In this document: positions 18,773-64,000 of the stretch, one piece after another | Layout of the letters: the number at the start of each line of letters is the position of its first letter | How positions within the stretch are numbered: the stretch's first letter is position 1 | Assembly: GCF_003932755.1 (NCBI RefSeq) | Contig: NZ_CP024202.1 | Span: 3,596,001-3,660,000, forward strand | Origin: Methylomicrobium sp. wino1 | Lineage (GTDB): Bacteria > Pseudomonadota > Gammaproteobacteria > Methylococcales > Methylomonadaceae | Reading direction: 5' to 3' | DNA length: 64,000 nt | Notes under the pieces: model-generated | What the model was told of the DNA's origin: nothing | Databases searched by the model: none | What the model saw: the letters and a program-made list of their open reading frames with translations, nothing else | Program-made: the position numbers and the translations under genes

Positions 18773-20259
18773 TGTTCCAATCCCGATTTAAGTTTGCTTT
18801 CCGATGCGATCAGGAAATTACCGGAGGTGACGATCTCATCGCCCTCAACCAACCCTTCCAGCACCTCAATGTAATCGGCATTACGTAGCCCGGTCTTGAT
18901 TTTTTTAGGCAGCAAGCGGCCTTCGCCCAAATCGACAAATACCACCCGCTTTTCGCCGGCATAGATCACCGCCTGTTCCGGAACCAGCAAACGCTTGCCT
19001 AAGTCGATTTGAAGATTCATGCGGGCATAGCGGTCGGGACGCAGCTCACCGTCCGAATTCGGCAACGTCATGCGCACCCGCGCGCTACGGCTTACATGAT
19101 CCAGGCTCGGTTCGATGAAATCGATAGTGCCGCAAAAACGCCTATCCGGTTGATCCTCCAGCACGACTTCGGCGCGCATGCCGGGCTTGAGCCACGGCAA
19201 GTCGGATTCGTAAACCTGAGCGTCCACCCAAACCTTGGATAAATCGGCTATGCGTAACAGCGGCATGCCGGCCTTGACGGCGGAACCGGCCACGATATGT
19301 TTTTCGACCAGGGTGCCGCTGACGGGGGACGCTATCGTCAAATATTCCAAGGCCTTACCGCGACGGGCCATGTCTTGAATCTGAGCCGGCGCGATGCCCC
19401 ACAGCGTCATGCGGCGCCGCGCCGCGTCGGCCAGATTGCCTAAACGCTCGTCGCTTCGTCGCAAACTATCGAGGTATTCTTCCTGGGTAGCGACCAATTG
19501 CGGATTGTAGACGGTCAACAAGGCTTGGCCTTTTTTCACCACCTTGCCGACATAATCCGCATTAAGCTCACCGATCCAGCCGTCGAACTTGAGACTGATG
19601 TCGGTTAGGCGGGTTTCGTCATAGACGATTTGCGCCGGCGAGCGGATAGTTTTAACAAGCTGACGGTATGCGACTCGGCCGGTGGTCACGCCGATCAGTT
19701 GCCGACGGTGCGCATCGATCGTGAAAGCGGCTGGTTGCGGAACGGCTTGACCGGAGACGACTTGTCTCGGCAGATGGTCGCTGGCCGTGGCGGACGTCAA
19801 CTCGACACCTTTTCGGCCGGTGCTCATATCGAAGGTCAGCTGCGCACTGCCTTTGACTTCGGATCGAATGGACAGCGTCAACGGCCAGTAGCCTGCCATC
19901 GGCAGTTCATAATGCCCGCGATAATGGCCGGGACTGTCCATTTTCATTTCGATCGGCACCGGCATGGCCGGCATGGAGCCCATTGCCGGCATCTCCGACA
20001 CGGCCTCGATACGGGCATCGGAAACAGGTTGTCCGTCTTTGTCTCGAATCAATAAACTGATCGTGTTATTGCCGACTTTGGGTTTTGCAGGCTCAAGCGT
20101 GACGTCTATGGCAAAAGGCCCGGCCCAATGGCTGAGGGTATCCTCGGGCTTTGCCATACTTTCATCGGCTGGACGATTGTAAACAAACACGAGGCTCCCG
20201 AGCAGCGCGAGTAAAATCGCACTCCCCGACAAATAACCTAATTTATGTTTTGTATTCAT
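18766..20259 (-). CDS. cusB: CusB-type periplasmic adaptor with FixH/YtkA-like domain (operon 1)
   Basis: Membrane-fusion protein linking CusA to the outer-membrane channel, 497 aa. An N-terminal membrane anchor (about residues 8-27) is followed by a beta-sandwich region of about 110 residues resembling FixH/YtkA domains (DKDGQPVSDARIEAVSEMPA), which contains a Met-rich MPAMGSMPAMPVPIEMKM stretch likely to bind Cu(I). Then come barrel-sandwich, short alpha-hairpin and beta-barrel domains (SPVSGTLVEKHIVAG; VWVDAQVYESDLPWLKPG). This N-terminal domain differs from the YxxPMNP metal-binding domain of the second operon's CusB. Overlaps cusC by 4 bp and cusA by 7 bp. Confidence 0.9.
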   Translation of the reverse strand: MNTKHKLGYLSGSAILLALLGSLVFVYNRPADESMAKPEDTLSHWAGPFAIDVTLEPAKPKVGNNTISLLIRDKDGQPVSDARIEAVSEMPAMGSMPAMPVPIEMKMDSPGHYRGHYELPMAGYWPLTLSIRSEVKGSAQLTFDMSTGRKGVELTSATASDHLPRQVVSGQAVPQPAAFTIDAHRRQLIGVTTGRVAYRQLVKTIRSPAQIVYDETRLTDISLKFDGWIGELNADYVGKVVKKGQALLTVYNPQLVATQEEYLDSLRRSDERLGNLADAARRRMTLWGIAPAQIQDMARRGKALEYLTIASPVSGTLVEKHIVAGSAVKAGMPLLRIADLSKVWVDAQVYESDLPWLKPGMRAEVVLEDQPDRRFCGTIDFIEPSLDHVSRSARVRMTLPNSDGELRPDRYARMNLQIDLGKRLLVPEQAVIYAGEKRVVFVDLGEGRLLPKKIKTGLRNADYIEVLEGLVEGDEIVTSGNFLIASESKLKSGLEQW

Positions 20260-21611
20260 AATGCCGCATCCTGCGTTGCTTGCATGCCCGAAAGTGGCAA
20301 AGCGCTGCCAACCGAGTGTTCCAATTCGGCCAAGTGGCGGTGCATGTCCGCCAAGACCCGTTTAGTTTGTAATTGGGTTTGCATCAGGTTATGCTCGCTG
20401 CTGATCAGGGTCAGAAAATCGCCGCCACCGCTGCGGTAGTCGGCCAATGCCGCTTTGAGAGTTTCGTCCGCCAGCGGTAATAATTTTTCTTGATGCAACC
20501 GATAGACGTGCAGGCTTTCGAGGGTCAATTCATAGGCAACCTGCACGTCTTCCCTGATTTTGGCTATCCGGTCGAAATGTTGCCATTCGGCTTGCTTGAT
20601 ACGGGCATACGCTTCGTCTTCGGCGGCACGGCGTTTGTCTTGGTCCAGCGGTAGATTCATCTCGATGCCGACAATGAAACGCTGCTCTTCTAGCCGCCAA
20701 AAGTTGTTGTAACCCGCTGAAACTTTGAAATCGGGATAAAAGTCTTTTTCCGCCAGATCGCTTCGGGATTTGGACGCATTTATACGCGCCGCCAATTCCC
20801 GCAACTCGGGGCGCGATTGCAAGGCAATCTCTTGTAATGCGGCCGGTTTGGGAAGCAATAACTCGGGGCTCAATTCGGACGGCGCCGGCAGCGGCGACTC
20901 CGGCAGACGGTACAGCAATGTGTTGAGACGGGCCAACAGGGTGCGCTTTTCCCGCTCTAGCGAGATTTTTTGATGATCGAGTAGCGCTATTTCAACTTCG
21001 GCTCGCAAAACATCTTGCTTACTAGCCAGGCCCGTCGCGTAACGATCGAGGGCGATGCCGTGAAATTCGGTCAACAAGCGCTGGTTGATCTCGTTAACTT
21101 CGAGGGCTTGATGAATGTAATACCAATCCGCGAATAAGGTCTTCGCGGTGGCCGTGAGCAGCAAACGCAAGGCCGCTATGTTTTCATTGGCCGCCTCGGC
21201 GTCGAAACTGGCCGCCTCGCCCCGTAACCGTCTCTTTCCCGGCCAGGGCAATTTTTGCGAAATGACGGTATTCTGTGAAAAACCGCTTTGCTGATTGGCT
21301 ATCGTCATCGGAGCAAAACTGTGCGATAGCATCGGATCGTCCAAAGCGGATACTTGCTCAGCCCGACTGGCCGTGGCTTGCCATATTGCCTGTACCACTT
21401 CCATTTGCGGATTCGCGGCTAGAATGTCAGACACTAACTGTCCGGACGACAGGGTTTTCCGAGCCTTGTTGACTTGCGGAGTAAAGTTGTCGAAAGCTGA
21501 TGGTCTATTCGATGGGAGTTCGACGGGCGTCTCTTCGGCTAAGCTGATTGCAGCTCGAAAAAAGCCGGTGGCCAACACCAGTCCTCGAAAGGAATAAAGG
21601 TATGATTTCAT
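20256..21611 (-). CDS. cusC: TolC-family outer membrane channel (CusC-like, operon 1)
   Basis: Outer-membrane efflux protein of 451 aa with a signal peptide at the N terminus (hydrophobic to about residue 24) and two copies of the OEP coiled-coil repeat. Typical segments are VISQKLPWPGKRRLRGEAA in the first half and SAGYNNFWRLEEQRFIVGIEMNLPLDQDKRR in the second. No lipobox Cys is seen, unlike E. coli CusC. The gene overlaps cusB by 4 bp (ATGA type) and begins 160 bp downstream of a small exported Cys-rich protein gene. It is the export duct for the tripartite pump. Confidence 0.9.
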   Translation of the reverse strand: MKSYLYSFRGLVLATGFFRAAISLAEETPVELPSNRPSAFDNFTPQVNKARKTLSSGQLVSDILAANPQMEVVQAIWQATASRAEQVSALDDPMLSHSFAPMTIANQQSGFSQNTVISQKLPWPGKRRLRGEAASFDAEAANENIAALRLLLTATAKTLFADWYYIHQALEVNEINQRLLTEFHGIALDRYATGLASKQDVLRAEVEIALLDHQKISLEREKRTLLARLNTLLYRLPESPLPAPSELSPELLLPKPAALQEIALQSRPELRELAARINASKSRSDLAEKDFYPDFKVSAGYNNFWRLEEQRFIVGIEMNLPLDQDKRRAAEDEAYARIKQAEWQHFDRIAKIREDVQVAYELTLESLHVYRLHQEKLLPLADETLKAALADYRSGGGDFLTLISSEHNLMQTQLQTKRVLADMHRHLAELEHSVGSALPLSGMQATQDAAL

Positions 21612-21770
21612 AGAGTGTCTCTAAGCGAAAAATCATTACAACTGTAAGCAAGCGCATTCTCTGTCCACGTCCCGCACCGGTAATGGAGTCAGGAACGTTT
21701 TGTTACAGAAGGCTTGTTATGGCTATGCACCCGTATCACCGGTGCAAGGGTTTTATCGCTAGAGATTGGC

Positions 21771-22211
21771 CTATAGCCGAAGACGCAGGGTGCGCAGAAA
21801 GATTTGCCGGTTGCCGACCAACAGAAACGGTTCAAACGGGGGCGCTGCAGATAAGAGTTTGGGCGTTAGAAAGTCGAAAAATTCCTGAAAGCCAATCGTC
21901 GGAGGCGGTTGCGGGCTATCCAACAATAAGGTCAGGAGTTCTGCCGTACTTGAACCGTGCGTCATGACGACTTCGGTCAATGAGTCCTGAGTCACTTCAC
22001 AGCATTGATCTTGATTCAAGTTTTCCTGCATGGCGCAAGCGTCAATCATCGGACAAGCTTCGGACATGGCTTCATCGCAGCAGCAAACCAGCTTTGGTTT
22101 GCCATGCATCTTTTCACAGGCAAACAGTATCTGGGTATGCGACAGCAACGCCGTAACTAGAAACATCAAGCAAAGTAAGCGTTGCAATGTTAAGTTGCGA
22201 AAAATGGCCAT
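21771..22211 (-). CDS. Small exported Cys-rich protein heading cus operon 1
   Basis: 146 aa from the ATG at 22211 (the frame is open 8 codons further, without better support). An N-terminal hydrophobic segment (LCLMFLVTALLSHTQILFA) looks like a signal peptide or anchor. It is followed by cysteine-rich sequence CEKMHGKPKLVCCCDEAMSEACPMIDACAMQ and CC, then a hydrophilic C terminus ending YLRT-like (IFLRTLRLRL). No named family is assigned, but Cys/Met-rich exported proteins at the head of copper efflux operons are known as periplasmic metal binders or regulators (CopL-like). It precedes cusC by 160 bp on the same strand. Confidence 0.65.
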   Translation of the reverse strand: MAIFRNLTLQRLLCLMFLVTALLSHTQILFACEKMHGKPKLVCCCDEAMSEACPMIDACAMQENLNQDQCCEVTQDSLTEVVMTHGSSTAELLTLLLDSPQPPPTIGFQEFFDFLTPKLLSAAPPFEPFLLVGNRQIFLRTLRLRL

Positions 22212-22294
22212 GCCGCAATTGTATTTTGAATGCACTCGGTATTCAACGCTTCTTTTGAAGAACCTGCATTAATTATTCTGATTAGCAAGATGCT

Positions 22295-22450
22295 TCAGCT
22301 TGCCGAAGCCAAATTCGAACGGGTTCCATTCGTAGCCGCAGCCATGATAAGGCGCGTAGTAATGGTATCGAGTCGGAAGCGTCGGTTAAAGCGGTACGCA
22401 GCCGCACCTAAGTAACGGGTGCCGTATTTGGCGAAATCGAAAGCATGGTA
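22295..22450 (-). pseudogene. IS1595-family transposase, C-terminal remnant
   Basis: Minus-strand translation from about 22450 to the TGA at 22295 gives YHAFDFAKYGTRYLGAAAYR and then FNRRFRLDTITTRLIMAAA. This matches the end of IS1595/ISXO2-type transposases (HAFxFxKYxxRYLxxxxYRFNRRF). Only about 50 codons remain, with no DDE core and no recognisable terminal inverted repeat. It marks an old insertion immediately upstream of cus operon 1. Confidence 0.7.
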
Positions 22451-22813
22451 GGCGCCGCCGCTGAGATGTGCAGTCGAACCACTATGTTACCGAGTTCCGA
22501 TTGCGGGTCAATGAAAACGCGGATGTTTTTGGGGAGTATTTATGGCCGGTCAAGGCTCTGTTTCATAACGCATTACAAAGAAATCGTCTTGTTCGACTTG
22601 CAAGACGGCAGCAGCTTCGGCGTGCACGAAGCAAGGCAACTCGCGGGCGGTAGGCTTGTTTCCAAATTGTCCGATCTCGACGAGATACTGATCGAGGCGG
22701 TCATTTTGGACGAGCTATGGCCTGACGTCTTCGCCGACGACGACACGCAACCCCTCTCCCGTTGGAAGTGGCACTTGGGTGAAATCCGTACCAAGACCTT
22801 TCCCGCAGTGTAA
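22445..22813 (+). CDS. Unrecognised ORF in the inter-cus gap
   Basis: An open frame of 122 codons. The part from about 22570 reads like real protein (YKEIVLFDLQDGSSFGVHEA, then DEILIEAVILDELWPDVFAD and a Trp-containing RWKWHLGEI). Its first third overlaps the IS1595 remnant and does not look protein-like, so the true start is unclear. A +2 frame across 22468-22570 (HYVTEFRLRVNENADVFGEY) also looks coding, suggesting a frameshifted gene. I do not recognise the family. Treat as a decayed or partial gene. Confidence 0.25.
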   Translation: MVGAAAEMCSRTTMLPSSDCGSMKTRMFLGSIYGRSRLCFITHYKEIVLFDLQDGSSFGVHEARQLAGGRLVSKLSDLDEILIEAVILDELWPDVFADDDTQPLSRWKWHLGEIRTKTFPAV

Positions 22814-23253
22814 TTGCCCGAGCCGTTGCGGGCGGTTTATCAGGATACAGAAAGCACCTAAATATCCTATTTGCAAATAATGAAATAAATGTTCATTTTT
22901 TCGTTTCATTTATTTCTTTTCATTCCGTTTTATTTCATTTATCTCACTTCTGTTCACGAACGCCACCGGAAATATAACGAGTATATTGAACAATTATATG
23001 ACGAAATTCCGGTTGACGAGATGCGCGAAAACAATGGCGGTGAATTGTATCAGGATTAGATGACCATAATCAGCACGCATGCCTAATCGCAGAATTACCG
23101 TATTTTTCAAACAGGTAAGGTTAACTGCGGAGCAGCTGACGACGCTGTAATACCGGTACTGAATTTTAAGTTTGATGCTGATCAAGTTCCTAAACGAACG
23201 CTAGTTGCAGGTGCCGGATTGTCTGTCGGCGGCCATTTTCCTTTAATCGTGGT
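22814..23253. other. Intergenic between cus operons, nothing recognised
   Basis: 440 bp downstream of cusA of operon 2 and near the IS1595 remnant. The first part (22870-22950) is very AT-rich with repeated TTCATTTAT/TTTATTTC motifs. The rest holds only short fragments. No promoter, terminator or gene could be supported. Confidence 0.4.
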
Positions 23254-26200
23254 TTATTGAATCGGATCATCCAAGTCTTTCTCTCTTCGCCGCTCCAAAC
23301 TCTGCAGCGCCAGACTGTAGATCACCGGAAACACCAACAGACTCAACATCAATACGGTCAGCATGCCGCCCAACACTGGGGCCGCGATGCGATGCGTCAC
23401 ATCGGCGCCGGTGCCGGTGGCCCACATAATCGGGACCAAACCTAGCATGGTCGTGAAGGCCGTGATCGCAACCGGACGTACGCGAAGGGCTGTAGCCGTT
23501 TCGACGGCCTCCCTGATTTCCGGCCCCGTTAAGGGCGATTGTTTTTGCGCGCGCAGTTTAGCGATTTCGATGTCGATAAAATTCAATACCATCGCGCCGG
23601 TCTCGGCGGCCGTGCCGGCCAGCGCGATAAAGCCGACATAGACTGCCACTGATAGATTGAAATCGTACCAGTAAATGGTCCAAATACCGCCGATCAGGCC
23701 GAAGGGAATCGTCAACATAACGATTATTGGCTCGACAAAGTTTCGGAAAGAAAAATACAGCAGCAAGAAGATCAACAACAAGGTCAAAGGCACGACGATG
23801 CGCAGCCGCTGGGCCGCACGTTCCATATATTCGAACTGGCCCGACCAGCTCACGGTATAGCCTTTGGGTATCTCGACTTGCTGGTCCAGTATTTTTTTGG
23901 CCTGAGCGACAAAGCCACCGATATCCGAGGTTTTGATATCGACATAAATCCAGGCGTTAAGGCGGGCATTTTCGCTTTTGATCGAGGGCGGTCCGCGTCT
24001 GAGCTCTAAATCGGCCACCAAGGTCAGCGGAATTTGGGCGCCGGTCGGGGCTGGAATCAGGACCCGTTTCAGGCTTTCCAGATTATCCCTCAGTTCGCGC
24101 GGATAACGGAGATTCACCGGATAGCGCTCCAGGCCTTCCACCGTCTCAGTCACGTTCATGCCGCCGATCGCGCTTTGAATGATGTCTTGCACGTCGCCGA
24201 CCGTCAAGCCGTAGCGTGCGGCCTGATCCCGGTCGATATCGAAATCAAGGTAATAGCCCCCAACCGAACGATCGCCAAAAGCCGAAAGTGTGTCAGGTAG
24301 GGTTTTCATTACCTGCTCAATTTCTTTGGATAAACGTTGTAATTCATTTAAATCCGGTCCGGACACTTTAATGCCTACCGGTGTTTTGATACCGGTAGAC
24401 AACATGTCGATTCGGGTTTTAATCGGCATGGTCCAGGCATTGGTGACGCCTGGGAAGCGAATCGCCCGGTCCATTTCGGCCATCAATTGCCGAGTGGTTT
24501 TATCCGGGTTTGGCCACTGATTTTTGGGCTTGAGCCGAACCGTGGTTTCCACCATCGACAAGGGTGCCGGATCGGTGGCGGTATCGGCCCGACCGACTTT
24601 ACCGAAGACATGCTGCACTTCCGGGAAGGTTTTCAGAATCTTATCGGTTTGCTGCAGCAATTCCTTCGCCTTGGTGATCGAGATACCGGGAAATGTGCTT
24701 GGCATATAGAGGATATCGCCTTCATCCAGTGGCGGCATAAACTCGCTGCCGGTTTTGGATAACGGATAAGCGGTGGATAACAGCAATACTATGGCTATTA
24801 TTAAAGTGACCGGACGCCAGCGCATGGCTGCTTTCAAAACTGGGGAGTGTAGGAAATGCAGGAAGCGGTTGACCGGATTTTTGTGTTCCGGAATGATTTT
24901 GCCGCGGATAAAATAGCCCATCAAGACCGGCACGACGGTGACTGTCAATAGCGCCGCGGCCGCCATCGCATAGGATTTGGTAAAGGCGAGCGGACTGAAC
25001 AGGCGGCCTTCCTGCGCCTGCATGGTAAAAATGGGCAGGAAGGAGGCGGTGATCACCAACAGCGAAAAAAACAGTGTCGGCCCCACTTCTTTCGAGGCGG
25101 CCTCGATGGCCTGCCAGCGCTCTTGCCGGGTCAGCTCGGCCCGTTTTTTTTCGGCCGCATCGGCCAAATGCTTGTGCGCGTTTTCGACCATCACGATGCC
25201 GCCGTCAACCATGTCGCCGATCGCAATGGCGATACCGCCCAACGACATGATGTTGGCATTGAGCCCCTGTAATTTCATTACGATGAAGGCGATCAAAACA
25301 CCCAGCGGCAACGTGATCACGATCACCAGCGACGAACGCAGATGCAGCAGAAACAAGCCGACCAACACGCAGACGATGATCAATTCTAGGGTCAACGCCT
25401 CGTATAAGGTCGCAACCGCACGTTCGATCAGATCGCCTCGGTCGTAGACCGGCACGATTTCGATGCCTTCCGGCAGTCCTTTTTTCAGTTCCTCAAGCTT
25501 GGCCCTGACACCGTCAATGGTGGCCTTGGCGTTTTCACCGAAGCGCATGACCACGATACCGCCCGCCACTTCACCTTCGCCATTCAGCTCCACCAAGCCC
25601 CGGCGCAGTTCCGGTCCGATTTGAACATGAGCGATATCCTGTATTCGAATGGGCGTGCCATTGGCATCGACCCCCAGCGGTATGCCGTTGATGTCATCAA
25701 TGTTTTGGATATAACCTAGACCGCGCACCATGTATTCGGTTTCGGCCATCTCGATCAATCGGCCGCCGACGTCGTTATTGGAGCGCTGAATGGCCTGTTT
25801 GACTTTGGCTAGCGGGATGCCGTAAGCGAGCAAAGCATTCGGGTCGACTTCAATCTGGTATTGTTTGACGTAACCGCCGACCGAAGCCACTTCGGATACA
25901 CCGGCTACGGTTTGTAATGGATAACGCATATACCAGTCTTGGATCGAACGCAGTTGGGACAAGTCGTGTTTGCCGGTTTTATCAACCAACGCATATTCAT
26001 ATATCCAGCCGACGCCAGTAGCGTCCGGTCCTAATGATGGATTGACACTTTTCGGCAAGCGGCCACTGACATAGTTAAGATATTCCAGAACCCGCGAACG
26101 AGCCCAGTACATATCGGTGCCATCTTCGAAAATGATATACACGAAAGAAAAACCGAAGAAGGAATAACCGCGAACCACTTTGGTCTTTGGGACTGCCAGC

Positions 26201-26418
26201 ATAGCCGTCGTCAAAGGATAAGTGACTTGGTCTTCGACGACCTGCGGCGCTTGCCCTGGGTATTCCGTGAAGACGATCACTTGCACATCGGATAAATCCG
26301 GTATTGCGTCCAAAGGTATGTTTTTAAAGGACCAAAGCCCAGCCAATCCAAGGATAATAGCAGCCAATAGTACGATGAATCGATCTTTGATCGAGCTATG
26401 AATTAATGCATCAATCAT
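23254..26418 (-). CDS. cusA: CusA-type metal efflux RND pump (operon 2)
   Basis: Second full-length heavy-metal RND pump, 1054 aa, in the same class as the operon 1 protein but clearly divergent. The Cu/Ag methionine triad is conserved at Met572 (ILYM), Met622 (PLSM) and Met672 (RIDM). TM4 reads IAIGDMVDGGIVMVENAHKHL, differing from the GAMVDAAI of E. coli CusA and operon 1. The truncated CusA fragment at 14116-14565 is closer to this protein than to the operon 1 copy. Overlaps the adaptor gene by 8 bp. Transports monovalent copper or silver by inference; a different metal preference is possible given TM4. Confidence 0.92.
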   Translation of the reverse strand: MIDALIHSSIKDRFIVLLAAIILGLAGLWSFKNIPLDAIPDLSDVQVIVFTEYPGQAPQVVEDQVTYPLTTAMLAVPKTKVVRGYSFFGFSFVYIIFEDGTDMYWARSRVLEYLNYVSGRLPKSVNPSLGPDATGVGWIYEYALVDKTGKHDLSQLRSIQDWYMRYPLQTVAGVSEVASVGGYVKQYQIEVDPNALLAYGIPLAKVKQAIQRSNNDVGGRLIEMAETEYMVRGLGYIQNIDDINGIPLGVDANGTPIRIQDIAHVQIGPELRRGLVELNGEGEVAGGIVVMRFGENAKATIDGVRAKLEELKKGLPEGIEIVPVYDRGDLIERAVATLYEALTLELIIVCVLVGLFLLHLRSSLVIVITLPLGVLIAFIVMKLQGLNANIMSLGGIAIAIGDMVDGGIVMVENAHKHLADAAEKKRAELTRQERWQAIEAASKEVGPTLFFSLLVITASFLPIFTMQAQEGRLFSPLAFTKSYAMAAAALLTVTVVPVLMGYFIRGKIIPEHKNPVNRFLHFLHSPVLKAAMRWRPVTLIIAIVLLLSTAYPLSKTGSEFMPPLDEGDILYMPSTFPGISITKAKELLQQTDKILKTFPEVQHVFGKVGRADTATDPAPLSMVETTVRLKPKNQWPNPDKTTRQLMAEMDRAIRFPGVTNAWTMPIKTRIDMLSTGIKTPVGIKVSGPDLNELQRLSKEIEQVMKTLPDTLSAFGDRSVGGYYLDFDIDRDQAARYGLTVGDVQDIIQSAIGGMNVTETVEGLERYPVNLRYPRELRDNLESLKRVLIPAPTGAQIPLTLVADLELRRGPPSIKSENARLNAWIYVDIKTSDIGGFVAQAKKILDQQVEIPKGYTVSWSGQFEYMERAAQRLRIVVPLTLLLIFLLLYFSFRNFVEPIIVMLTIPFGLIGGIWTIYWYDFNLSVAVYVGFIALAGTAAETGAMVLNFIDIEIAKLRAQKQSPLTGPEIREAVETATALRVRPVAITAFTTMLGLVPIMWATGTGADVTHRIAAPVLGGMLTVLMLSLLVFPVIYSLALQSLERRREKDLDDPIQ

Positions 26419-27793
26419 GTCGATGATCTCCTTGTTGTACCGGAGTTACCTTGTCTTCGATGCGATGGTTGGTGTTGTTTGATTCCTGCTGGTGTGGCAT
26501 AGAAGTCGTATTCATCTGTCCGGCAGGTTGATTAGGGGCGACCATTTTGGCGGTGGCTTCACGCAGTTTGGATTCCGAATCGATCAGAAATTGCGCCGAG
26601 GTAACCACCTCTTCACCGACTTTAACACCTTCTAAAACGGCTACTCTGCCATTGGAGGTCAACCCCAGCGTCACCGGGCGCGGTTCGAACTTGCCCGGAG
26701 CGCGCATTACGAAGACTTGTTCCCGGGTGCCGGAACGGATGATCGCTTCGCTGGGCAAGGTTACAGCTTTCAACTGTTTACTGGCCATAATGGCAACTTG
26801 GACATACATGTCCGGTTTCAGCAACAGCTCCGAGTTATCGAACACGAGCCGAACTTTGATGGATCGCGTTTTAGGTTCGGCATAGGGATAAACATAAGCC
26901 AGATGGCCTTTAAAAGTACGACCAGGGACGCCTGCCAACTGCATTTCAACCGGGTCGCCCACTTTGACCCAGGGTAATTCATATTCATAAATATCGGCAT
27001 AGACCCAGACGGTGGAGAGATCGGCGATCATGTAGAGCTCGGTCGCCGGTGTGACATATTGACCTTCTCGAACGCCGATATTCATGACGATGCCTGCCGC
27101 CGGAGAATGAATATGCAAACTTTTTTTGATCTTCTGAGTACGCGTCAAATCATGTAGTTGGTGGGAAGGCACATCCAATAACTTGAGCCGCTCACGCGAA
27201 CTGTTCAGCAACTCCTCGGCACCCCGTCGAATATCCTCGATAGGACTATTTTCCAAGGCCTTGAGATTGTTCAGAGACAGAATGTATTCCTGTTGACTAG
27301 CCACCAATTGCGGCGAATAAATACTGAGCAGGTCGTCATCTTTTTTGACCCATTCGCCGGTTTTATCTATCCGCAAGGTTTCTATCCAGCCTTCCGTTTT
27401 TGGATGAAGTCGAACCAGATGCTCTTCATCGTAGGCTACCCGACCAACCGCGCGAACAATGTGCGAGAGCGTTTCTTGATTGGCAATGGCCGTGCGGACA
27501 CCGATATTCTGTTCGGTAACCGGATCAATTTTGACGGTGCCTGACGGCGTGGTTGTGCCGTTTAAGTCATCTGCATAGACCGGAACATAATCCATGCCCA
27601 TCGCATCTTTCGCCGGTATTGGGGAAGTCACGGACGGATTCATCGGACTGCGATAAAACAAAGGTATTTTACTCGGTGTTGTTGATGAAGCGGCATTCTG
27701 TGTTTCACTCTGATGCCGGGTTGCTAACCAATACCCTCCGCTCAGCCCCACAGCCAATAGTAAAGGCGCTGCAATGATCAAGGACTTATTCAT
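26411..27793 (-). CDS. cusB: CusB-type periplasmic adaptor with N-terminal heavy-metal-binding domain (operon 2)
   Basis: 460-aa membrane-fusion protein. After an N-terminal anchor (residues 5-24) it carries the short heavy-metal-binding domain seen in E. coli CusB: FYRSPMNPSVTSPIPAKDAM, then GMDYVPVYADD. The Cu-handling Met residues are kept. Barrel-sandwich and beta-barrel domains follow (SPAAGIVMNIGVREGQYV; VWVYADIYEYELPWVKVG). The C-terminal tail is His-rich (ending GDHRHD) with Met and Gln/Asn, another likely metal-binding segment. Overlaps cusC and cusA by 8 bp each. Confidence 0.9.
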   Translation of the reverse strand: MNKSLIIAAPLLLAVGLSGGYWLATRHQSETQNAASSTTPSKIPLFYRSPMNPSVTSPIPAKDAMGMDYVPVYADDLNGTTTPSGTVKIDPVTEQNIGVRTAIANQETLSHIVRAVGRVAYDEEHLVRLHPKTEGWIETLRIDKTGEWVKKDDDLLSIYSPQLVASQQEYILSLNNLKALENSPIEDIRRGAEELLNSSRERLKLLDVPSHQLHDLTRTQKIKKSLHIHSPAAGIVMNIGVREGQYVTPATELYMIADLSTVWVYADIYEYELPWVKVGDPVEMQLAGVPGRTFKGHLAYVYPYAEPKTRSIKVRLVFDNSELLLKPDMYVQVAIMASKQLKAVTLPSEAIIRSGTREQVFVMRAPGKFEPRPVTLGLTSNGRVAVLEGVKVGEEVVTSAQFLIDSESKLREATAKMVAPNQPAGQMNTTSMPHQQESNNTNHRIEDKVTPVQQGDHRHD

Positions 27794-56718: not shown

Positions 56719-56970
56719 CGGCGGATTGATTGAATAAGATTCTATGGCGAATACGGCCGAAATTATAGCCGATATCGCAATAGGGCGCCTCTGTATGCCT
56801 GATGATCGGTATGCGGAAGGTATTATTGCCGGTTAGTGCTCAAAATGCCGAAAAATATTTCCACAAATATTATGCGGCACTGGTTTTTGTGTGTTAGATT
56901 TGACGAAAGTTTCATGTGCTTGGAAGTTTTTAGCGCTCTACTCCATTTCCACTCATCCATGAGCCTGTCA

Positions 56971-58071
56971 ATGCCGGAAAACTCTAACGCTAAAATACTG
57001 ATCGTCGACGACTCGCCGGAAAATTTATGCGTTCTCAGCGATTTACTACAAACTCAATTTCAAGTGCGCGTTGCCACATCCGGAGAGAAGGCCTTGCGTA
57101 TTGCAGGTACTGCGCCTCATCCCGATTTGATTTTGCTCGATGTGATGATGCCGGGTATGGACGGTTATCAAGTATTCGAGCATTTACGTGCCGATTCGGC
57201 CACGCGAGATATTCCGATTATTTTTGTCACCGCGATGGACAGTGAAGAAGCGCAGCTCCAAGGTTTGGACTCCGGTGCGGTCGATTATATTACCAAACCG
57301 ATTTCGCCTCCTATCGTCATGGCGCGCGTTCGAATTCAATTAGAACTTAAACAAGCGCGCGATCGCTTGTCGCATCAAAATTCCTGGTTGGAGGCTGAGA
57401 TTGCGCGGCGTATGGCGGAAAACGAGTTGGTACAAGAAGTCAGTATCAGGGCTCTCGCCCATCTGGCCGAAGCGCGCGATCCCGAAACCGGCAATCATAT
57501 TTTGCGCACCCAAGGTTATGTGCAGGAGTTGGCCATGGCTTTGCAAAATTGCCCAGGATTTTGCGATGTGCTGACCGATAAATTTATCAAGCTATTGAGT
57601 CGTTCGGCGCCGTTGCACGATATCGGCAAGGTCGGTATTCCCGATGCCATCTTGCTAAAACCGGGGCCATTGACACCTGCCGAATGGGCCGTGATGAAGA
57701 CGCATGCCCGTATCGGTAGCGAAGCGATAGAAATGGCCGAACAAGAAGCCGCGGGACAAGTCGAATTTTTGTCGTTGGCCAAGGAAATAGCCCATTGGCA
57801 TCATGAAAAATGGGACGGTTCCGGTTATCCGGATGGCTTATCCGGCGAAAGCATACCGATTTCTGCGCGCATCATGGCGCTGGCCGATGTATTCGATGCT
57901 TTGATTTCTCCGCGTGTATATAAGGCACCGATGAGTTACGGTGAAGCCAGGGGCATTATTGCTTCGGGGCGCGGCAGTCATTTCGACCCGGCCATGGTCG
58001 ATGTGTTTTTGAAGCATTTCGATGTCTTTTGCAAAATAGCCGACCGATATAGCGATTCGGTAATGGTATAA
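56971..58071 (+). CDS. Response regulator with HD-GYP c-di-GMP phosphodiesterase domain
   Basis: Receiver domain (residues about 8-125, phosphoacceptor Asp57 in LILLDVMMPGMDGY, acidic pair IVDDS, Lys in DYITKP), coiled-coil linker, then an HD-GYP domain (about 150-355). The latter contains HDIGKVGIP, HHEKWDGSGYPDGL and ARIMALADVFDAL, the metal and c-di-GMP hydrolysis signatures of the RpfG type. 366 aa from ATG 56971; ATG 56959 and an open frame to 56836 are alternatives, and no start has a good ribosome site. Ends 4 bp before the next gene, suggesting co-transcription with the PAS protein. Confidence 0.9.
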   Translation: MPENSNAKILIVDDSPENLCVLSDLLQTQFQVRVATSGEKALRIAGTAPHPDLILLDVMMPGMDGYQVFEHLRADSATRDIPIIFVTAMDSEEAQLQGLDSGAVDYITKPISPPIVMARVRIQLELKQARDRLSHQNSWLEAEIARRMAENELVQEVSIRALAHLAEARDPETGNHILRTQGYVQELAMALQNCPGFCDVLTDKFIKLLSRSAPLHDIGKVGIPDAILLKPGPLTPAEWAVMKTHARIGSEAIEMAEQEAAGQVEFLSLAKEIAHWHHEKWDGSGYPDGLSGESIPISARIMALADVFDALISPRVYKAPMSYGEARGIIASGRGSHFDPAMVDVFLKHFDVFCKIADRYSDSVMV

Positions 58072-58075
58072 CAAA

Positions 58076-60325
58076 ATGTCTCGTCGACACCCTCGGGCGG
58101 AAATCATCCGTATCGTATTGACTTATGCGTTGTACGCCGCGTTGTGGATATTCTTTTCCGATAGCTTGCTATCAAGTCTTATTGATGAGCCGGATAACAT
58201 AGCGTTAATTAGCACCATTAAGGGGTGGATCTTCGTTATTGTCACATCGTTGCTGCTGTTTCAATTAATGCACCGCTTGGTGGGCCGGGAAGCCATTGCA
58301 GAAAATACCGAAAAAAATCGTTTCGGCACAGGCGTGCATTGGACGTTATTGGTTGTCGCCGTTTTCTTATTCGTATTTGCTTATAGCCAATATCGATCTT
58401 TCGGCAATCAACCATTGCAATTATCGCCAATACGATCGGCAACGATGCAAGACTCGGCTTGGTTGGGACTTGCCGGTTTAATCTCGATATTTACAATTGG
58501 GACGGGATTCTATCTGTTACGCCAACAGGAACGCTTAGCCGAGTCTCAAGCAATACAACGGGCTCAAGCGGAGCGGTTAAAGGCGCTCGGTTTATTAGCC
58601 GCAATCGCCGAGAGTTCGAACGATGCGATTTTCGCGAAGGATTTGGAAGGTCGTTATACGCTTTTTAATCCCGCTTCGGAGCGTTTTACCGGAAAAAAGG
58701 CCGTCGATGTTCTGGGGCTTGGCGATACGGTGCTTTTTTCACCCGAACAGGCCGAAATGCTTATCGCGAACGATCGGGCTGTATTGGAAGAAGGTCGGGT
58801 CATTACTTACTACGAGGAACTCAATGTTTCGAACGGAAAACGCATATTTCTTGCCACTAAAGGGCCTTTGTTCGATAACGATAGCAATGTTATCGGAATA
58901 TTCGGGATTTCGCGCGACATAAGCGAGCTAAAACAAGCAGAGCAGTCGTTACGAAATAGCGAGGAGCGTTTTCGGGCATTGGTGGAGCAATCGCTAGCCG
59001 GTATTTATATCATTCAGGATAATCGATTTCGCTACATCAACCCCGCTTTTGCATCGATTTTAGGATATCACTCCACTCGGCAAATTATCGATACATTGGC
59101 GGTCGACGATTTAGTCATCCCCGAGCATCGTGAGGAAGTCATGGTTAACATCGCTCGCTTGATCGGTGGAACGGTATCTTCTATCAGTAATTACCGTTTT
59201 ACCGCATTACGCCGCGACGGAAGTCCCGCGTATATCGAGGCGCATGGCAGCGCTTTCGATTATCAAGGCCGACCTGCCGTCATAGGGCTCTTTCTCGATA
59301 TCAGCGCGCGCAAAGCCGCCGAAGACGCGCTTCGTGAAAGCGAGCGGCGCTTTTACGATATCGCCAATGTTTCCGCGGACTGGATTTGGGAAATCGATAC
59401 CGACGGGCGGCTCTTTTATTCGTCGGATGGCGTATTCGAAATGCTCGGCTATGATTCCGAGGATGTACTGGGTAAGACCCCATTCGATTTTATGCCACAG
59501 GAAGAAGCCGACAGGCTACGCGCATGGTTTGTCGATATTAGACGCCAGCGTAAATCGTTTCGTGACGTTGAGAACATAAACCGGCACAAGGATGGACGCT
59601 TACGTTATATCATGACTCACGGCACTCCGATTCTCGATGATGACGGTCAACTGCTCGGTTTTCGAGGTCTCGATCAAGATATCACGGAACGAAAGCAAGC
59701 AGAATTGGCTGTGCGGCAAAGCGAAGCGTTTAAACGTGCGATTCTGGATTCGGTCAATGCCCATATTGCCGTACTGGATAAGCAAGGCATCGTTGTAGCG
59801 GTCAATCAACCGTGGCGACGCTTTGCACAGGAAAACGGACTAAAGCCTGGGGGCGCGTTTAATTCAGTCGATGTCGGGGCAAATTATTTGGATGTTTGTC
59901 AAAGAAGCACCGGCCCATCGTCCGAAGGCGCGATGACGGCAAGAGATGGGATTTTATCGGTTTTGGAAGGTCGTGTTCCAGTGTTTTACTTGGAATATGC
60001 CTGTCATTCGCCGGAAAGGCAGCGGTGGTTTATGATGACTATAACGCCGCTGGATATGGATGAACAAGGCGTGGTCATTGCTCATACCGATATCACCGCT
60101 CGTAAGGCCGTCGAAGAGACGCTCCGCCGGCAAACCGAAGAGCTAGAGGATCGTAATCAGGAATTGGAGCGTTTTAATCGTGCGACGGTTGGACGTGAAC
60201 TCGATATGATTGCTTTAAAGCAGAAAATCAATGAACTTTCCAAGCAGTTAGGGGAAAACCCGCCTTATCCGCTAGCTTTTCTCGATAATTCTCAGCAAGA
60301 TACGCAATACAACGATACCCGGTAA
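58076..60325 (+). CDS. Membrane-bound multi-PAS sensor protein without kinase domain
   Basis: 749 aa. About four hydrophobic helices within residues 9-150 (LTYALYAALWIFFSDSLLSS; WIFVIVTSLLLFQLMHRL; LLVVAVFLFVFAYSQY; GLAGLISIFTIGTGFYLL) are followed by four PAS domains, at about residues 180-290, 295-415, 420-535 and 545-670. These carry PAC motifs such as GISRDISELKQAEQ, FRGLDQDITERKQAE and AHTDITARKAVEE. The C terminus is a coiled coil ending without HisKA/HATPase, GGDEF or EAL. It may pass its signal to the neighbouring kinase or the HD-GYP regulator. The 4-bp gap to the HD-GYP gene argues for joint expression. Confidence 0.85.
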   Translation: MSRRHPRAEIIRIVLTYALYAALWIFFSDSLLSSLIDEPDNIALISTIKGWIFVIVTSLLLFQLMHRLVGREAIAENTEKNRFGTGVHWTLLVVAVFLFVFAYSQYRSFGNQPLQLSPIRSATMQDSAWLGLAGLISIFTIGTGFYLLRQQERLAESQAIQRAQAERLKALGLLAAIAESSNDAIFAKDLEGRYTLFNPASERFTGKKAVDVLGLGDTVLFSPEQAEMLIANDRAVLEEGRVITYYEELNVSNGKRIFLATKGPLFDNDSNVIGIFGISRDISELKQAEQSLRNSEERFRALVEQSLAGIYIIQDNRFRYINPAFASILGYHSTRQIIDTLAVDDLVIPEHREEVMVNIARLIGGTVSSISNYRFTALRRDGSPAYIEAHGSAFDYQGRPAVIGLFLDISARKAAEDALRESERRFYDIANVSADWIWEIDTDGRLFYSSDGVFEMLGYDSEDVLGKTPFDFMPQEEADRLRAWFVDIRRQRKSFRDVENINRHKDGRLRYIMTHGTPILDDDGQLLGFRGLDQDITERKQAELAVRQSEAFKRAILDSVNAHIAVLDKQGIVVAVNQPWRRFAQENGLKPGGAFNSVDVGANYLDVCQRSTGPSSEGAMTARDGILSVLEGRVPVFYLEYACHSPERQRWFMMTITPLDMDEQGVVIAHTDITARKAVEETLRRQTEELEDRNQELERFNRATVGRELDMIALKQKINELSKQLGENPPYPLAFLDNSQQDTQYNDTR

Positions 60326-60795
60326 GGAACGAGTATGAAATAACTTAAGCTTTTGATTCCTTCAGTCTTCTCCTAGAGAGGAGACGTGGGGTATTCATCG
60401 TTCCCGCGCTCAGCGCTCTCCGTCATAGACATCTCTTTGAGATACATTATTGGCCATCCAGCGCGATGGCAAAATCACGCAATCGCTGGAACTCTGTAAG
60501 TTACGCTGTGCGTAACCATGGCGACACCGCCAATATTAACCCAAGCCATTATTGTTTGACCTGGGTAGGGATTCGGTGCCAAGGTACGCGTAGCGTAGCG
60601 TACCCTACAATTTATGTATAACGATGAGGGTAGTGCGTGGTAACCATGCGAAATGTATATCTATGGCCGTGTCGGCAAGAACGCCCGATCGCATAGCCTA
60701 CGCCATGCTTTAACGACTCAGTTTAGATTAAGCCCCAGGATCTATTGAAATATGTTAAACACAATCCATTCTTTAAGCCTTGATTCGGTGGCATT
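60326..60795. repeat. Intergenic repeats between sensor genes
   Basis: Starts with a GGAACGAGTATGAAATAACTT repeat member at 60324-60362, then TCTCCTAGAGAGGAGA palindrome and a REP-like TTCCCGCGCTCAGCGC block. GGTACGCGTAGCGTAGCGTACC near 60582 is palindromic. No gene is supported. Confidence 0.55.
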
Positions 60796-62415
60796 ATGAT
60801 CGACGAACTGAGCCAATTTCTTTCGACAAAAGGCTTGCTTCCTCACGGTTATTGTCTGAGTTGGTCGCCGCCCTTGGTGATGACTTATGTCGTTAGCGAA
60901 ACATTGATTTTTCTCGCTTATTTTTCCATGCCGGCCGCGTTGTCTTATTTCGCGAGACGACGCAAGGACTTTCCTTATCAATGGGTGCTGTGGATGTTCG
61001 CCACGTTTATCATGGCTTGCGGACTGACTCATTTGTTGGGGGCAGTCTTACTTTGGCAACCTTGGTATGGCTTGGATGTTATTTTCAAGTCCGCTACCGC
61101 GCTGATTTCGATTGGCGCCGCCGTGTCGCTCTGGTATGTGCTTCCCGACGCGCTTAGATTACCCAGTCCCGCGCAATTGCGCCGAGTGAATGAACAATTA
61201 CAAACTGAAATCATCGAACGTAGAAGAATTGAGGAAGAGTTGAGGCAAGCTAAGTCTGAAATCGAACTAAGTTTGCACAAGGAACGCATACTCCGTGCGG
61301 CTATTGTCGAATTTTCCGATGATGCGATTATTGGCGGCAGTGCCGATGGAATCATGACGGATTGGAACAGAGCCGCTGAGGTTATGTTTGGCTATAACTC
61401 AGAGGAAGCTCTAGGGCAATCGTTGCTCTCGCTGATGGCGCCCGCACAGCGCGATCCAGAGCAGGCGCTAATCGAAGCTGTCGGTAGGGGACAATCGGTC
61501 AGGCAGCACGAATTACAGTGTTTACATAAGAATGGTAATTTGTTCGATGTGGCGATGACGCTTTCACCTATTTTCGATAAAGAGAAAAAAGTGGTGGCTT
61601 TATCAACGATTGCTCGGGATATAACCGAACGGAAGCGTAACGAGCTGGAGATAATCAGACTTAATGCCGATTTAGAACGACGCGTAAAGGAACGAACCGC
61701 TGAACTGACCTTGGCGAACCGAGAGTTAGATAGCTTCGCTTATGCGGTCTCTCATGATTTACGGGCTCCGATCCGAGCATTGAATGGATTTAGTTGGGCC
61801 TTGATCGAAGACTATGCGGACGAACTGCAAGACCAAGCAAAAGAATACTTGCAACAGATCGGTGTTGCGACCTGCCGCATGAATGATTTGATCGACGGTT
61901 TATTATCGCTATCGCGAAATACACGCGGCGAGTTAAGCCGCGATCGGGTTGATATTTCTTCGCTGGCAATTCGTATGCTCGCTGAATTGTCCGATAGTAA
62001 TCCCGGCCGTCATGTCGATGTGCGGGTCGAACAGGGCCTGAGTGCCTGTTGCGATAAGCGCATGATCGAGTCGGTCATGTTTAATTTGCTCGAAAATGCT
62101 TGGAAATATACGGCCAAACAAAATACGCCGAGCATTCGAGTGTTTGCTCGAGATCGAGACGGCGTTCGCTATTTTTGTGTGGCCGACAATGGGGCCGGCT
62201 TCACTATGGCAAATACCGAACGTTTATTTCAACCTTTCCAACGGCTGCATCATCAAGACGAATTTCCCGGTATCGGCATTGGTTTGGCTACCGTTAAACG
62301 CATCATCAATCGGCACGGCGGCGTGATCGAAGCCGATAGCGAACCGGATAAAGGAGCCGAATTTTGTTTTTCATTGCCTGAAATAGCGATCGAAGGAAAC
62401 AAGTTATCACGATGA
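60796..62415 (+). CDS. PAS histidine kinase with ethylene-receptor-type membrane domain
   Basis: 539 aa. Residues 26-125 form three helices that align without gaps to the ethylene-binding domain of plant ETR1: LAYFSMPAALSYFARRR, FPYQWVLWMFATFIMACGLTHLL. The copper ligands Cys65/His69 of ETR1 correspond to Cys75/His79, and Tyr32 to Tyr42. ETR1 Asp25 is Glu35 here. Next come a coiled coil, one PAS domain (about 175-290), and a kinase core with phosphoacceptor His320 (YAVSHDLRAPIRAL), N box (NLLENAWKYT), G1 (VADNGAGF) and G2 (GIGIGLATVKRI), of the bacteriophytochrome-like HisKA type. Its stop overlaps the start of the next receiver gene (ATGA), suggesting a cognate pair. Confidence 0.88.
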   Translation: MIDELSQFLSTKGLLPHGYCLSWSPPLVMTYVVSETLIFLAYFSMPAALSYFARRRKDFPYQWVLWMFATFIMACGLTHLLGAVLLWQPWYGLDVIFKSATALISIGAAVSLWYVLPDALRLPSPAQLRRVNEQLQTEIIERRRIEEELRQAKSEIELSLHKERILRAAIVEFSDDAIIGGSADGIMTDWNRAAEVMFGYNSEEALGQSLLSLMAPAQRDPEQALIEAVGRGQSVRQHELQCLHKNGNLFDVAMTLSPIFDKEKKVVALSTIARDITERKRNELEIIRLNADLERRVKERTAELTLANRELDSFAYAVSHDLRAPIRALNGFSWALIEDYADELQDQAKEYLQQIGVATCRMNDLIDGLLSLSRNTRGELSRDRVDISSLAIRMLAELSDSNPGRHVDVRVEQGLSACCDKRMIESVMFNLLENAWKYTAKQNTPSIRVFARDRDGVRYFCVADNGAGFTMANTERLFQPFQRLHHQDEFPGIGIGLATVKRIINRHGGVIEADSEPDKGAEFCFSLPEIAIEGNKLSR

Positions 62416-64000
62416 ATGAGGTACAAAAAATTCTTGTCATCGAGGACAATGCGGCGGATTTTTTATTGTTGGAACGCTATTTACGAAGGCATGGACTTGC
62501 GTCCGTGTGTTTTTGCGTAAGTTCCAATGCGGAGTTGCGACGGGCTTTGCAAAACGAATGGGATGTGGTGCTCTCCGATTATAATGTGCCCGGCATGAAT
62601 TTTCGTTCGACCCTACAATCTATCAAAGCGCACCGGGACGACTTGCCGGTTATTTTAGTGACGAGTGCGATCGGCGAAGAAGCCGCTGTGGATTTGTTAT
62701 GGCAAGGCGTTAGCGATTTCGTGCTCAAAGACAATCTTGCCCGCTTGCCTTCGACCATCCATCGTGCATTGAATGAAGTCAGAGAGCATCGGGCTTTGCA
62801 ACAAGCCGAAGCCGCACTGAAACAAAGCCAGGCGAAAACTCTCGAAGAACAGCGTCAAGCACGTTTGGCGGCGTTAAACTTAATGGAGGACGCCATCGCG
62901 GCACAAACGAGAGCCGAGCAGGCGAATGCCGCATTGTTGGAGTCGGAAGCCAAGTTTCGTTTATTGGCCGAGAATTCTTCGGATTGTATTTTTTGGCTCG
63001 ATCTTGAGGATCAATTTAAATATATATCACCGGCGTGTGTGCAAATAACAGGTTACCCCCCTGATGCCTTTTTAGAGAATTCGAAGCTCATGGATGACCT
63101 TGTGCATGAAGAGGACCGGGACAGATATCGACACTTTCTGGTGAGCGATAGCGAAAACAAAACGGGCTATTTGGAGTTTCGAATCGTGCACAAAGATGGT
63201 GCTATCCGTTGGGTCAGTCATCAGAATAAGGCGATCCATGACGAGAACGGGACTTATCTGGGCAAGCATGGCTGCCAGCGAGACATTACCGCGCAAAAAT
63301 CGATAGAGCAAGACTTGCGCGATAGCGAAGCGCGCTTCCGGGTGGCGGTGGAAAACATTCAGGATGCCTTTATTTTAATGGATGCGGACGACCGGATAGT
63401 TATTTGGAACCCCGGAGCCGAGGCGATATTCGGTTATACGCAAGACGAAGTGGAGGGGAAGTTGCTCCATGCTACGATTGCGCCTTCCCGTTTACATGAC
63501 ACAGCCACAGCCGGATTATCGCATTTCAAACAAACAGGGGATGGGCCGGTTATAGGGCGCACGTTGGAATTGCCTGCCGTTCGCCGAAATGGCGAGGAGT
63601 TTTTGGTCGAACTTTCCCTGTCGGCTGTCGAATTGGACGGGTATTGGCACGCTGCCGGTATTGTCCGCGATATTACCGAGCGCAAACGAACCGAAGAGCA
63701 GTTGCGCAAGCTCGCACAGGCAGTCGAGCAGAGCCCCGAAAGCATTGTGATCGCCAATTTGGATGCCGAGATCGAATATGTCAATCAGGCTTTTTTGGCG
63801 AATACAGGCTATAGCCTTGACGAGGTAATCGGTCGTAATCCTAACATTCTACACTCCGGTAAGACGCCGCCTGAGACGTTTATTCAATTTTGGGATGCCA
63901 TGACTAGCGGTGAAACTTGGAAAGGCGAATTTATCAACCGGCGCAAGGACGGTAGCGAATATATCGAGTTCGCGATCGTTTCGCCGCTGCGTCAACCGGA
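62412..64000 (+). CDS. Receiver-PAS signalling protein, 3' end outside window
   Basis: Open to the window edge (about 529 codons seen). An N-terminal receiver domain (residues 5-125) has phosphoacceptor Asp56 in VVLSDYNVPGMN, acidic Glu11/Asp12 and Lys in FVLKDN. A coiled coil of about 60 residues follows, then PAS domains with PAC motifs GCQRDITAQKSIEQ and AGIVRDITERKRTEE, and a third PAS (YVNQAFLANTGYSLDEVIGR, then NPNILHSGKTPPE). The output domain is beyond 64000; GGDEF/EAL or a kinase is common after this layout. Overlaps the ethylene-receptor-like kinase gene by 4 bp. Confidence 0.88.
   Translation, partial: MNEVQKILVIEDNAADFLLLERYLRRHGLASVCFCVSSNAELRRALQNEWDVVLSDYNVPGMNFRSTLQSIKAHRDDLPVILVTSAIGEEAAVDLLWQGVSDFVLKDNLARLPSTIHRALNEVREHRALQQAEAALKQSQAKTLEEQRQARLAALNLMEDAIAAQTRAEQANAALLESEAKFRLLAENSSDCIFWLDLEDQFKYISPACVQITGYPPDAFLENSKLMDDLVHEEDRDRYRHFLVSDSENKTGYLEFRIVHKDGAIRWVSHQNKAIHDENGTYLGKHGCQRDITAQKSIEQDLRDSEARFRVAVENIQDAFILMDADDRIVIWNPGAEAIFGYTQDEVEGKLLHATIAPSRLHDTATAGLSHFKQTGDGPVIGRTLELPAVRRNGEEFLVELSLSAVELDGYWHAAGIVRDITERKRTEEQLRKLAQAVEQSPESIVIANLDAEIEYVNQAFLANTGYSLDEVIGRNPNILHSGKTPPETFIQFWDAMTSGETWKGEFINRRKDGSEYIEFAIVSPLRQP

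Follow-up and report, generated by a model that had tools for sequence, protein, structure and literature searches.

In the 64,000-nucleotide stretch of Methylomicrobium sp. wino1 DNA analyzed here (contig NZ_CP024202.1, positions 3,596,001 to 3,660,000 of the forward strand; hereafter the window), a gene at positions 60796-62415 encodes a histidine kinase with an ethylene-binding domain (EBD) of the ETR1_N family. The protein is probably a membrane receptor that depends on Cu(I) and responds to ethylene or a small alkene like it, and it would feed a phosphorelay with cyclic di-GMP (c-di-GMP) output, a reading to which we assign a probability of about 0.55. The kinase belongs to a domain family that is already known and is common in the family of the host, and its role as an ethylene receptor is putative. 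The new part is a glutamate, found throughout the host genus, at a residue that is essential in the plant receptor ETR1. The gene and its domains are the following.

60796-62415, + strand: EBD/PAS/histidine kinase gene, 539 amino acids (open reading frame, Pfam domains, kinase motifs)
60874-61161, + strand: ETR1_N ethylene-binding domain, residues 27-122 (Pfam PF25487)
61294-61629, + strand: PAS domain, residues 167-278 (Pfam)
61729-62382, + strand: HisKA, residues 312-377, with His320 within SHDLRAP, and HATPase_c, residues 420-529 (Pfam, motif reading)

Residues 27-122 of the kinase match positions 2-97 of the PF25487 (ETR1_N) profile over equal spans with 114 bits (E 3.9e-33), the curated cut-off being 27 bits, which places the protein in this family. 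The EBD is predicted to consist of three long helices (residues 25-55, 62-84 and 91-120; AlphaFold mean pLDDT 93.8), in keeping with the three membrane helices of the ETR1_N family. No Pfam match to a GAF domain was obtained for the kinase; instead, a single PAS domain is followed by HisKA and HATPase_c, and reading of the sequence revealed all of the H, N, G1 and G2 boxes. Together with an adjoining receiver gene, these catalytic motifs identify a two-component kinase whose phosphotransfer is putative. An unrelated three-helix family was considered for the EBD but is not supported, given the ETR1_N match, and an origin from phage was discarded, as no PHROG match was found.

The residues of the EBD that matter for comparison with ETR1 are located as follows.

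60841-60855, + strand: PHGYC motif, residues 16-20, ahead of helix 1 (survey)
60898-60900, + strand: Glu35, GAA codon, at the place of ETR1 Asp25 (BLASTP alignment, AzoEtr1 numbering)
60928-60930, + strand: Met45, at the place of ETR1 Ile35 (alignment, domain survey)
61018-61032, + strand: Cys75 (61018-61020) and His79 (61030-61032), aligned with the ETR1 copper ligands Cys65 and His69 (alignment, AzoEtr1 numbering, survey)
61087-61089, + strand: Lys98, at the place of ETR1 Lys91 (AzoEtr1 mapping, survey)

BLASTP of the EBD against residues 1-125 of Arabidopsis ETR1 gave 62.8 bits (E 9e-19) with 37 of 105 residues identical, and residues 34-82 aligned without gaps to ETR1 24-72, so that Glu35 falls on Asp25, Tyr42 on Tyr32, Cys75 on Cys65 and His79 on His69. 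The ETR1 residues required for ethylene binding are Asp25, Tyr32, Ile35, Pro36, Ile62, Cys65 and His69, and the window kinase keeps Tyr42, Pro46, Ile72, Cys75 and His79 as well as Lys98. The Cys and the His on helix 2 that would ligate copper are therefore both in place. The preliminary description had proposed an ethylene-receptor-type domain in a histidine kinase, with this gapless stretch, these copper ligands and Tyr42, with Glu in place of Asp25, and with a PAS domain and kinase behind it rather than a GAF domain; the present data bear out each of these points, and the profile search that it had named as a possible source of refutation was run and left the ETR1_N placement standing. Met45 in place of Ile35 is a second change, absent from that description.

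According to PMC11819568, D35, C75, H79 and K98 of AzoEtr1 from Azospirillum brasilense correspond to D25, C65, H69 and K91 of ETR1, and the numbering of the window kinase coincides with that of AzoEtr1 at all four positions. The equivalence of Lys98 and Lys91 rests on this mapping, because BLASTP puts the loop gap elsewhere and Lys98 off Lys91. In models of ETR1, Asp25 positions His69 and forms a bond with Lys91 (PMC11819568), and on this mapping Lys98 supplies the modelled partner; in simulations, contact between copper and D25 was only infrequent (PMC6586836).

A survey of 249 distinct ETR1_N domains, a subset of the matches found, included 247 with both sites 25 and 91 (ETR1 numbering). 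Among these 247, Asp predominates at site 25 (223 domains, against 17 with Asn, six with Glu and one with His); site 35 is Ile in 202 and Met in 32; Cys75 is kept in 243 and His79 in 245; and all seven required residues are present in 159. The PHGxC motif ahead of helix 1 is near-invariant (His17 in 241 and Cys20 in 240 domains, with three gaps at each), and its histidine may, as a guess, be part of a second metal site. A lone cysteine before the EBD, with a possible disulfide, has been described for cyanobacteria (PMC6682694).

Glu was found at site 25 in all five genus orthologues, host included, and is encoded by GAA or GAG; these come from five of the six genus genomes, G161 (79% complete), with a single weaker match, having been left out. 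The sixth Glu25 sequence, L183, is a distant protein that lacks Lys91. In a tree calculated without sites 25 and 91, which has few columns and many unresolved forks, the Glu proteins form a starred clade amid Asp-bearing proteins of Methylobacter, Methylomonas and Rhodocyclaceae. Over ten genus pairs the EBD showed dN/dS values of 0.02-0.17, and it was the most conserved part of the protein in five pairs and level in one. In G159, G162 and G160 it is 98-99% identical to that of the window, the remainder of the protein being 88-90% identical. Glu35 is thus real, derived (being nested among Asp relatives), genus-wide and under purifying selection, and the EBD is maintained and not decaying.

The genes that flank the kinase gene are listed below.

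56836-58071, + strand: receiver-HD-GYP response regulator, upstream (Pfam, motifs)
58076-60325, + strand: multi-PAS protein, 749 amino acids, upstream (Pfam)
62412-63998, + strand: hybrid kinase, receiver-PAS-HisKA-HATPase-receiver-Hpt, 1186 amino acids, downstream, continuing past the window end and complete at L064:4413-7973 (Pfam)

The ATG of the hybrid kinase gene overlaps the stop codon of the EBD kinase gene, and the HD-GYP regulator carries HD, HHE and GYP motifs. This arrangement was compared with nine orthologous loci (L066-L074), of which four belong to the host genus and five to three other genera. In all nine, the gene after that of the kinase bears a receiver, encoding a hybrid kinase, a single receiver of 146-172 amino acids, or both (the identity of the single receiver in L070, L071 and L073 was read from the named copies L096, L099 and L102), and a receiver-HD-GYP gene lies upstream in seven. 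Also, a single receiver with 45-81% identity is encoded downstream in the betaproteobacterial loci L092, L094, L095 and L098. In L075-L078 a related EBD is part of one protein of about 1297 amino acids resembling the hybrid kinase, and L075, the sole one of these checked with Pfam, contains EBD, PAS, HisKA, HATPase, receiver and Hpt domains. The conserved module supports a phosphorelay with HD-GYP output, the transfer steps of which we infer.

In the mechanism that we propose, Cu(I) would be held by Cys75 and His79 within the three-helix domain, ethylene or a similar small alkene would bind to this Cu(I), and Glu35 would stand in for Asp25, positioning His79 and forming a pair with Lys98. Ligand binding would alter autophosphorylation at His320, in a direction that is likewise putative, and phosphate would pass to a receiver encoded by the adjoining gene, most likely the N-terminal receiver of the 1186-residue hybrid kinase. 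From there it would travel via the Hpt domain of the hybrid kinase to the receiver-HD-GYP protein encoded upstream, and because phosphate would reach this protein, the gas would alter c-di-GMP.

Several observations weigh against such a receptor. Five of the seven required residues are identical, because Ile35 is replaced by Met45 in addition to Glu35 standing for Asp25, and the window kinase thereby lacks the full set found in the functional receptors AtETR1, SynEtr1 and AzoEtr1. Seven residues have been reported as required for ethylene binding in ETR1 (PMC11819568, PMC6682694); mutation of Asp25 eliminates binding (PMC11819568), and the copper site has been described as comprising Asp25 along with Cys65 and His69 (PMC12643061). 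A literature search on ethylene and D25E found no report on Glu at the Asp25 place. No solved structure resembles the domain, since a sequence search of the PDB with the EBD returned nothing below E 0.1 and a Foldseek comparison of the EBD model with PDB structures found none at E ≤ 0.001. The HD-GYP gene is missing from two of the nine loci, L071 and L073, within the stretches read, and the operon contains no copper gene. Furthermore, in four genus pairs, all of them with G163, conservation is lowest in the EBD third of the protein (85-86% versus 86-91%).

The alternative that survives best, although we consider it unlikely, is that Cu(I) binding persists in the EBD while its form with Glu35 and Met45 responds not to ethylene but to copper itself or to a different small ligand, such as acetylene, propylene, CO, NO or some other gas. 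It would account for copper ligands that are kept while surrounding residues have changed genus-wide, and for Cys75 and His79 being more conserved across the survey than sites 25 and 35. However, Asp25 is retained in the closest relatives, and the module is complete in three of the five orthologous loci from outside the genus, so the change of ligand would need to have arisen inside a single genus. Met at site 35 is not confined to this genus, the operon without copper genes speaks against this alternative too, and a tightly held copper cofactor, as in ETR1 (PMC12643061), is more to be expected of a gas sensor than of a copper sensor. A domain that no longer binds a ligand and acts as membrane anchor and dimeriser, with the PAS domain as the true sensor, seems distinctly improbable. 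The loss of binding that follows loss of Asp25 in ETR1 (PMC11819568), the rarity of Glu at site 25 and the pairs with G163, where the EBD falls behind the PAS and kinase parts in conservation, would agree with it, but the conservation in the other pairs, the low dN/dS values and the retention of Cys75, His79, Tyr42, Pro46, Ile72 and Lys98 argue against it. That Glu35 is an assembly or annotation error is refuted by the GAA or GAG codons of five genomes, and nothing was found in its favour.

The putative alkene receptor can be set beside systems that are already known. Arabidopsis ETR1 shares with it Cys65/His69, Tyr32, Pro36 and Ile62, whereas in the window kinase Glu and Met take the places of Asp25 and Ile35, a PAS domain stands where ETR1 has GAF, and the neighbours are of phosphorelay type. 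AzoEtr1, a functional relative, has been shown to bind 14C-ethylene, and its host responds to ethylene with lower c-di-GMP, through a pathway that is not yet known (PMC11819568). AzoEtr1 differs in having all seven required residues, including Asp35, and in its demonstrated ethylene binding (PMC11819568). SynEtr1 of Synechocystis is likewise an EBD receptor with histidine kinase activity, phosphotransfer to a response regulator and one Cys ahead of the EBD, but it senses light besides ethylene (PMC11819568, PMC6682694); the window protein has a single PAS domain plus kinase and adjoins a hybrid kinase and an HD-GYP regulator. The nearest EBDs (L039-L043 and L088-L109, from Methylobacter, Methylomonas, Rhodocyclaceae, Sterolibacterium and others) are 60-71% identical, and several belong to EBD-PAS-histidine kinases with an adjoining receiver; unlike the window kinase, all of them have Asp at site 25, and some have GGDEF/EAL-like or hybrid-kinase outputs.

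The host encodes a second protein of this family.

L065:2693-5260 (G000:C1:925000-936000), - strand: second ETR1_N protein, G000:C1:929900, 856 amino acids, EBD-PAS-GGDEF-EAL (Pfam)

This protein and all four genus counterparts read (L083, L084, L255, L273) have Asn25 with Asp91, and in the five genus genomes read neither of the two ETR1_N proteins has Asp25. Asn25 with an acid at site 91 was found in 14 of the 247 distinct domains, from six host-family genera, with Glu91 in seven and Asp91 in seven; Glu and Asp alternate at site 91 within the class, and all 14 domains keep Cys65 and His69. In effect, this class carries the acid on helix 3 and no longer on helix 1. The Fisher test table for acid-base covariation at sites 25 and 91 is 226/3/1/17 and ignores kinship. 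For the tree from which independent pairs were counted, 197 of 246 domains with few gaps were used, a 90% identity limit having been applied and L187, L190, L191, L192, L207, L222 and L223 excluded where present. One independent pair was obtained on starred branches and five on all branches, and a single clade for the 13 Asn/His rows was not rejected (p-AU 0.964). Many independent covariation events were thus rejected, as one origin fits and independent pairs are few, and the 14 domains are not a count of independent events because they are compatible with one origin.

The host is a Methylotuvimicrobium-like methanotroph, as the preliminary description had surmised: its genome, a single contig of 5,056,496 bases, has one PF02461 match (subunit A) at 447 bits. 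NCBIfam models for PmoA and AmoA both pass for this protein and so cannot separate them. In the host family, ETR1_N was found in 138 of 237 genomes (135 over the cut-off) and in 23 of 29 genera, in the host order in 156 of 301 genomes, and in a draw from the phylum without the host in 28 of 397. An alphaproteobacterial genus has ETR1_N in 14 and PF02461 in 31 of its 39 genomes, 13 of those 31 having both. The family of this genus has ETR1_N in 19 of 119 genomes, namely in 15 of 112 PF02461-negative and four of seven PF02461-positive ones if two draws of 119 are taken, from their listed handles, as the same genomes. The family of the PF02461 carrier G338, perhaps ammonia oxidisers, has ETR1_N in just five of 100 genomes, and neither G338 nor G423, the two genomes outside the host family that pass the PF02461 cut-off in the phylum draw, has it. 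A link between ETR1_N and methane monooxygenase was dropped as functional evidence, the association being confounded by kinship and opposed by PF02461-negative carriers and PF02461-positive non-carriers; kinship confounds all of these distribution figures. They do overturn the rarity implied by the preliminary description, as SynEtr1 and AzoEtr1 represent an established bacterial family (PMC6682694, PMC11819568). Among the listed matches of a literature search outside subscription papers, judged by titles and abstract openings, there was no report of the ethylene-receptor family in methanotrophs, which does not prove its absence from print.

In several forest soils, 3-50 ppmv of ethylene sufficed to inhibit methane oxidation, and methane monooxygenase co-oxidises ethylene to toxic epoxyethane, with inhibition of methane oxidation (PMC11507031); therefore, a methanotroph has reason to sense ethylene. 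The word "receptor" is absent from the main text of that paper. As over half of the host-family genomes carry ETR1_N, the domain is a candidate ethylene sensor for methanotrophs, which would matter because ethylene inhibits them and because such a sensor is directly testable. The orthologue in the genus-mate Methylotuvimicrobium buryatense 5G (G160), with an EBD 98% identical, makes the ethylene role open to genetic test, and the naturally occurring Glu variant, like the Asn/acid swaps, offers a ready-made test of the role of Asp25 in plant receptors. It is a tentative idea, and one we would rather doubt, that these receptors serve methanotrophs as an alarm against an alkene which, as a substrate analogue, poisons the cells through methane monooxygenase, and that the host genus retuned both receptors at the Asp25-Lys91 pair (Glu25/Lys91 in one; Asn25/Asp91 in the other, which belongs to the helix 1 to helix 3 acid class of the methanotroph family), altering affinity or ligand.

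Two related domains of the phylum draw, L188 and L189, keep Cys65 and Asp25 and probably lack the usual copper site, because they have Arg at His69 and Phe at Tyr32. In relatives, the ETR1_N matches at G009:C34:28985-29266 and G095:C2:4138281-4138649 cross an in-frame TAG and represent broken copies or sequencing errors.

A gene for a P-type ATPase of the copper-translocating type (L064:13347-15674; TIGR01511, 621 bits versus a cut-off of 397) lies about 9 kb downstream of the EBD kinase gene, behind four opposite-strand genes, and an operon link to copper was dropped; a role of this ATPase in copper supply is conceivable, not indicated, and was not used as evidence. At positions 15623-27793 of the window (- strand), two heavy-metal RND permeases of the CusA/CzcA family are encoded together with adaptor genes, one adaptor being CusB-like and under the curated CusB cut-off. 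The HD-GYP gene may start later than the listed GTG, as the aligned open reading frames of L067-L069 begin at residue 29. Neither a promoter-like site nor a repeat was detected when positions 60300-60830 were scanned. The gap upstream of the kinase gene measures 470 bases in the host and between 128 and 816 in its genus-mates; in the host it contains a palindrome-like sequence of 22 bases, GGTACGCGTAGCGTAGCGTACC, at 60583-60604, which occurs once in the window.
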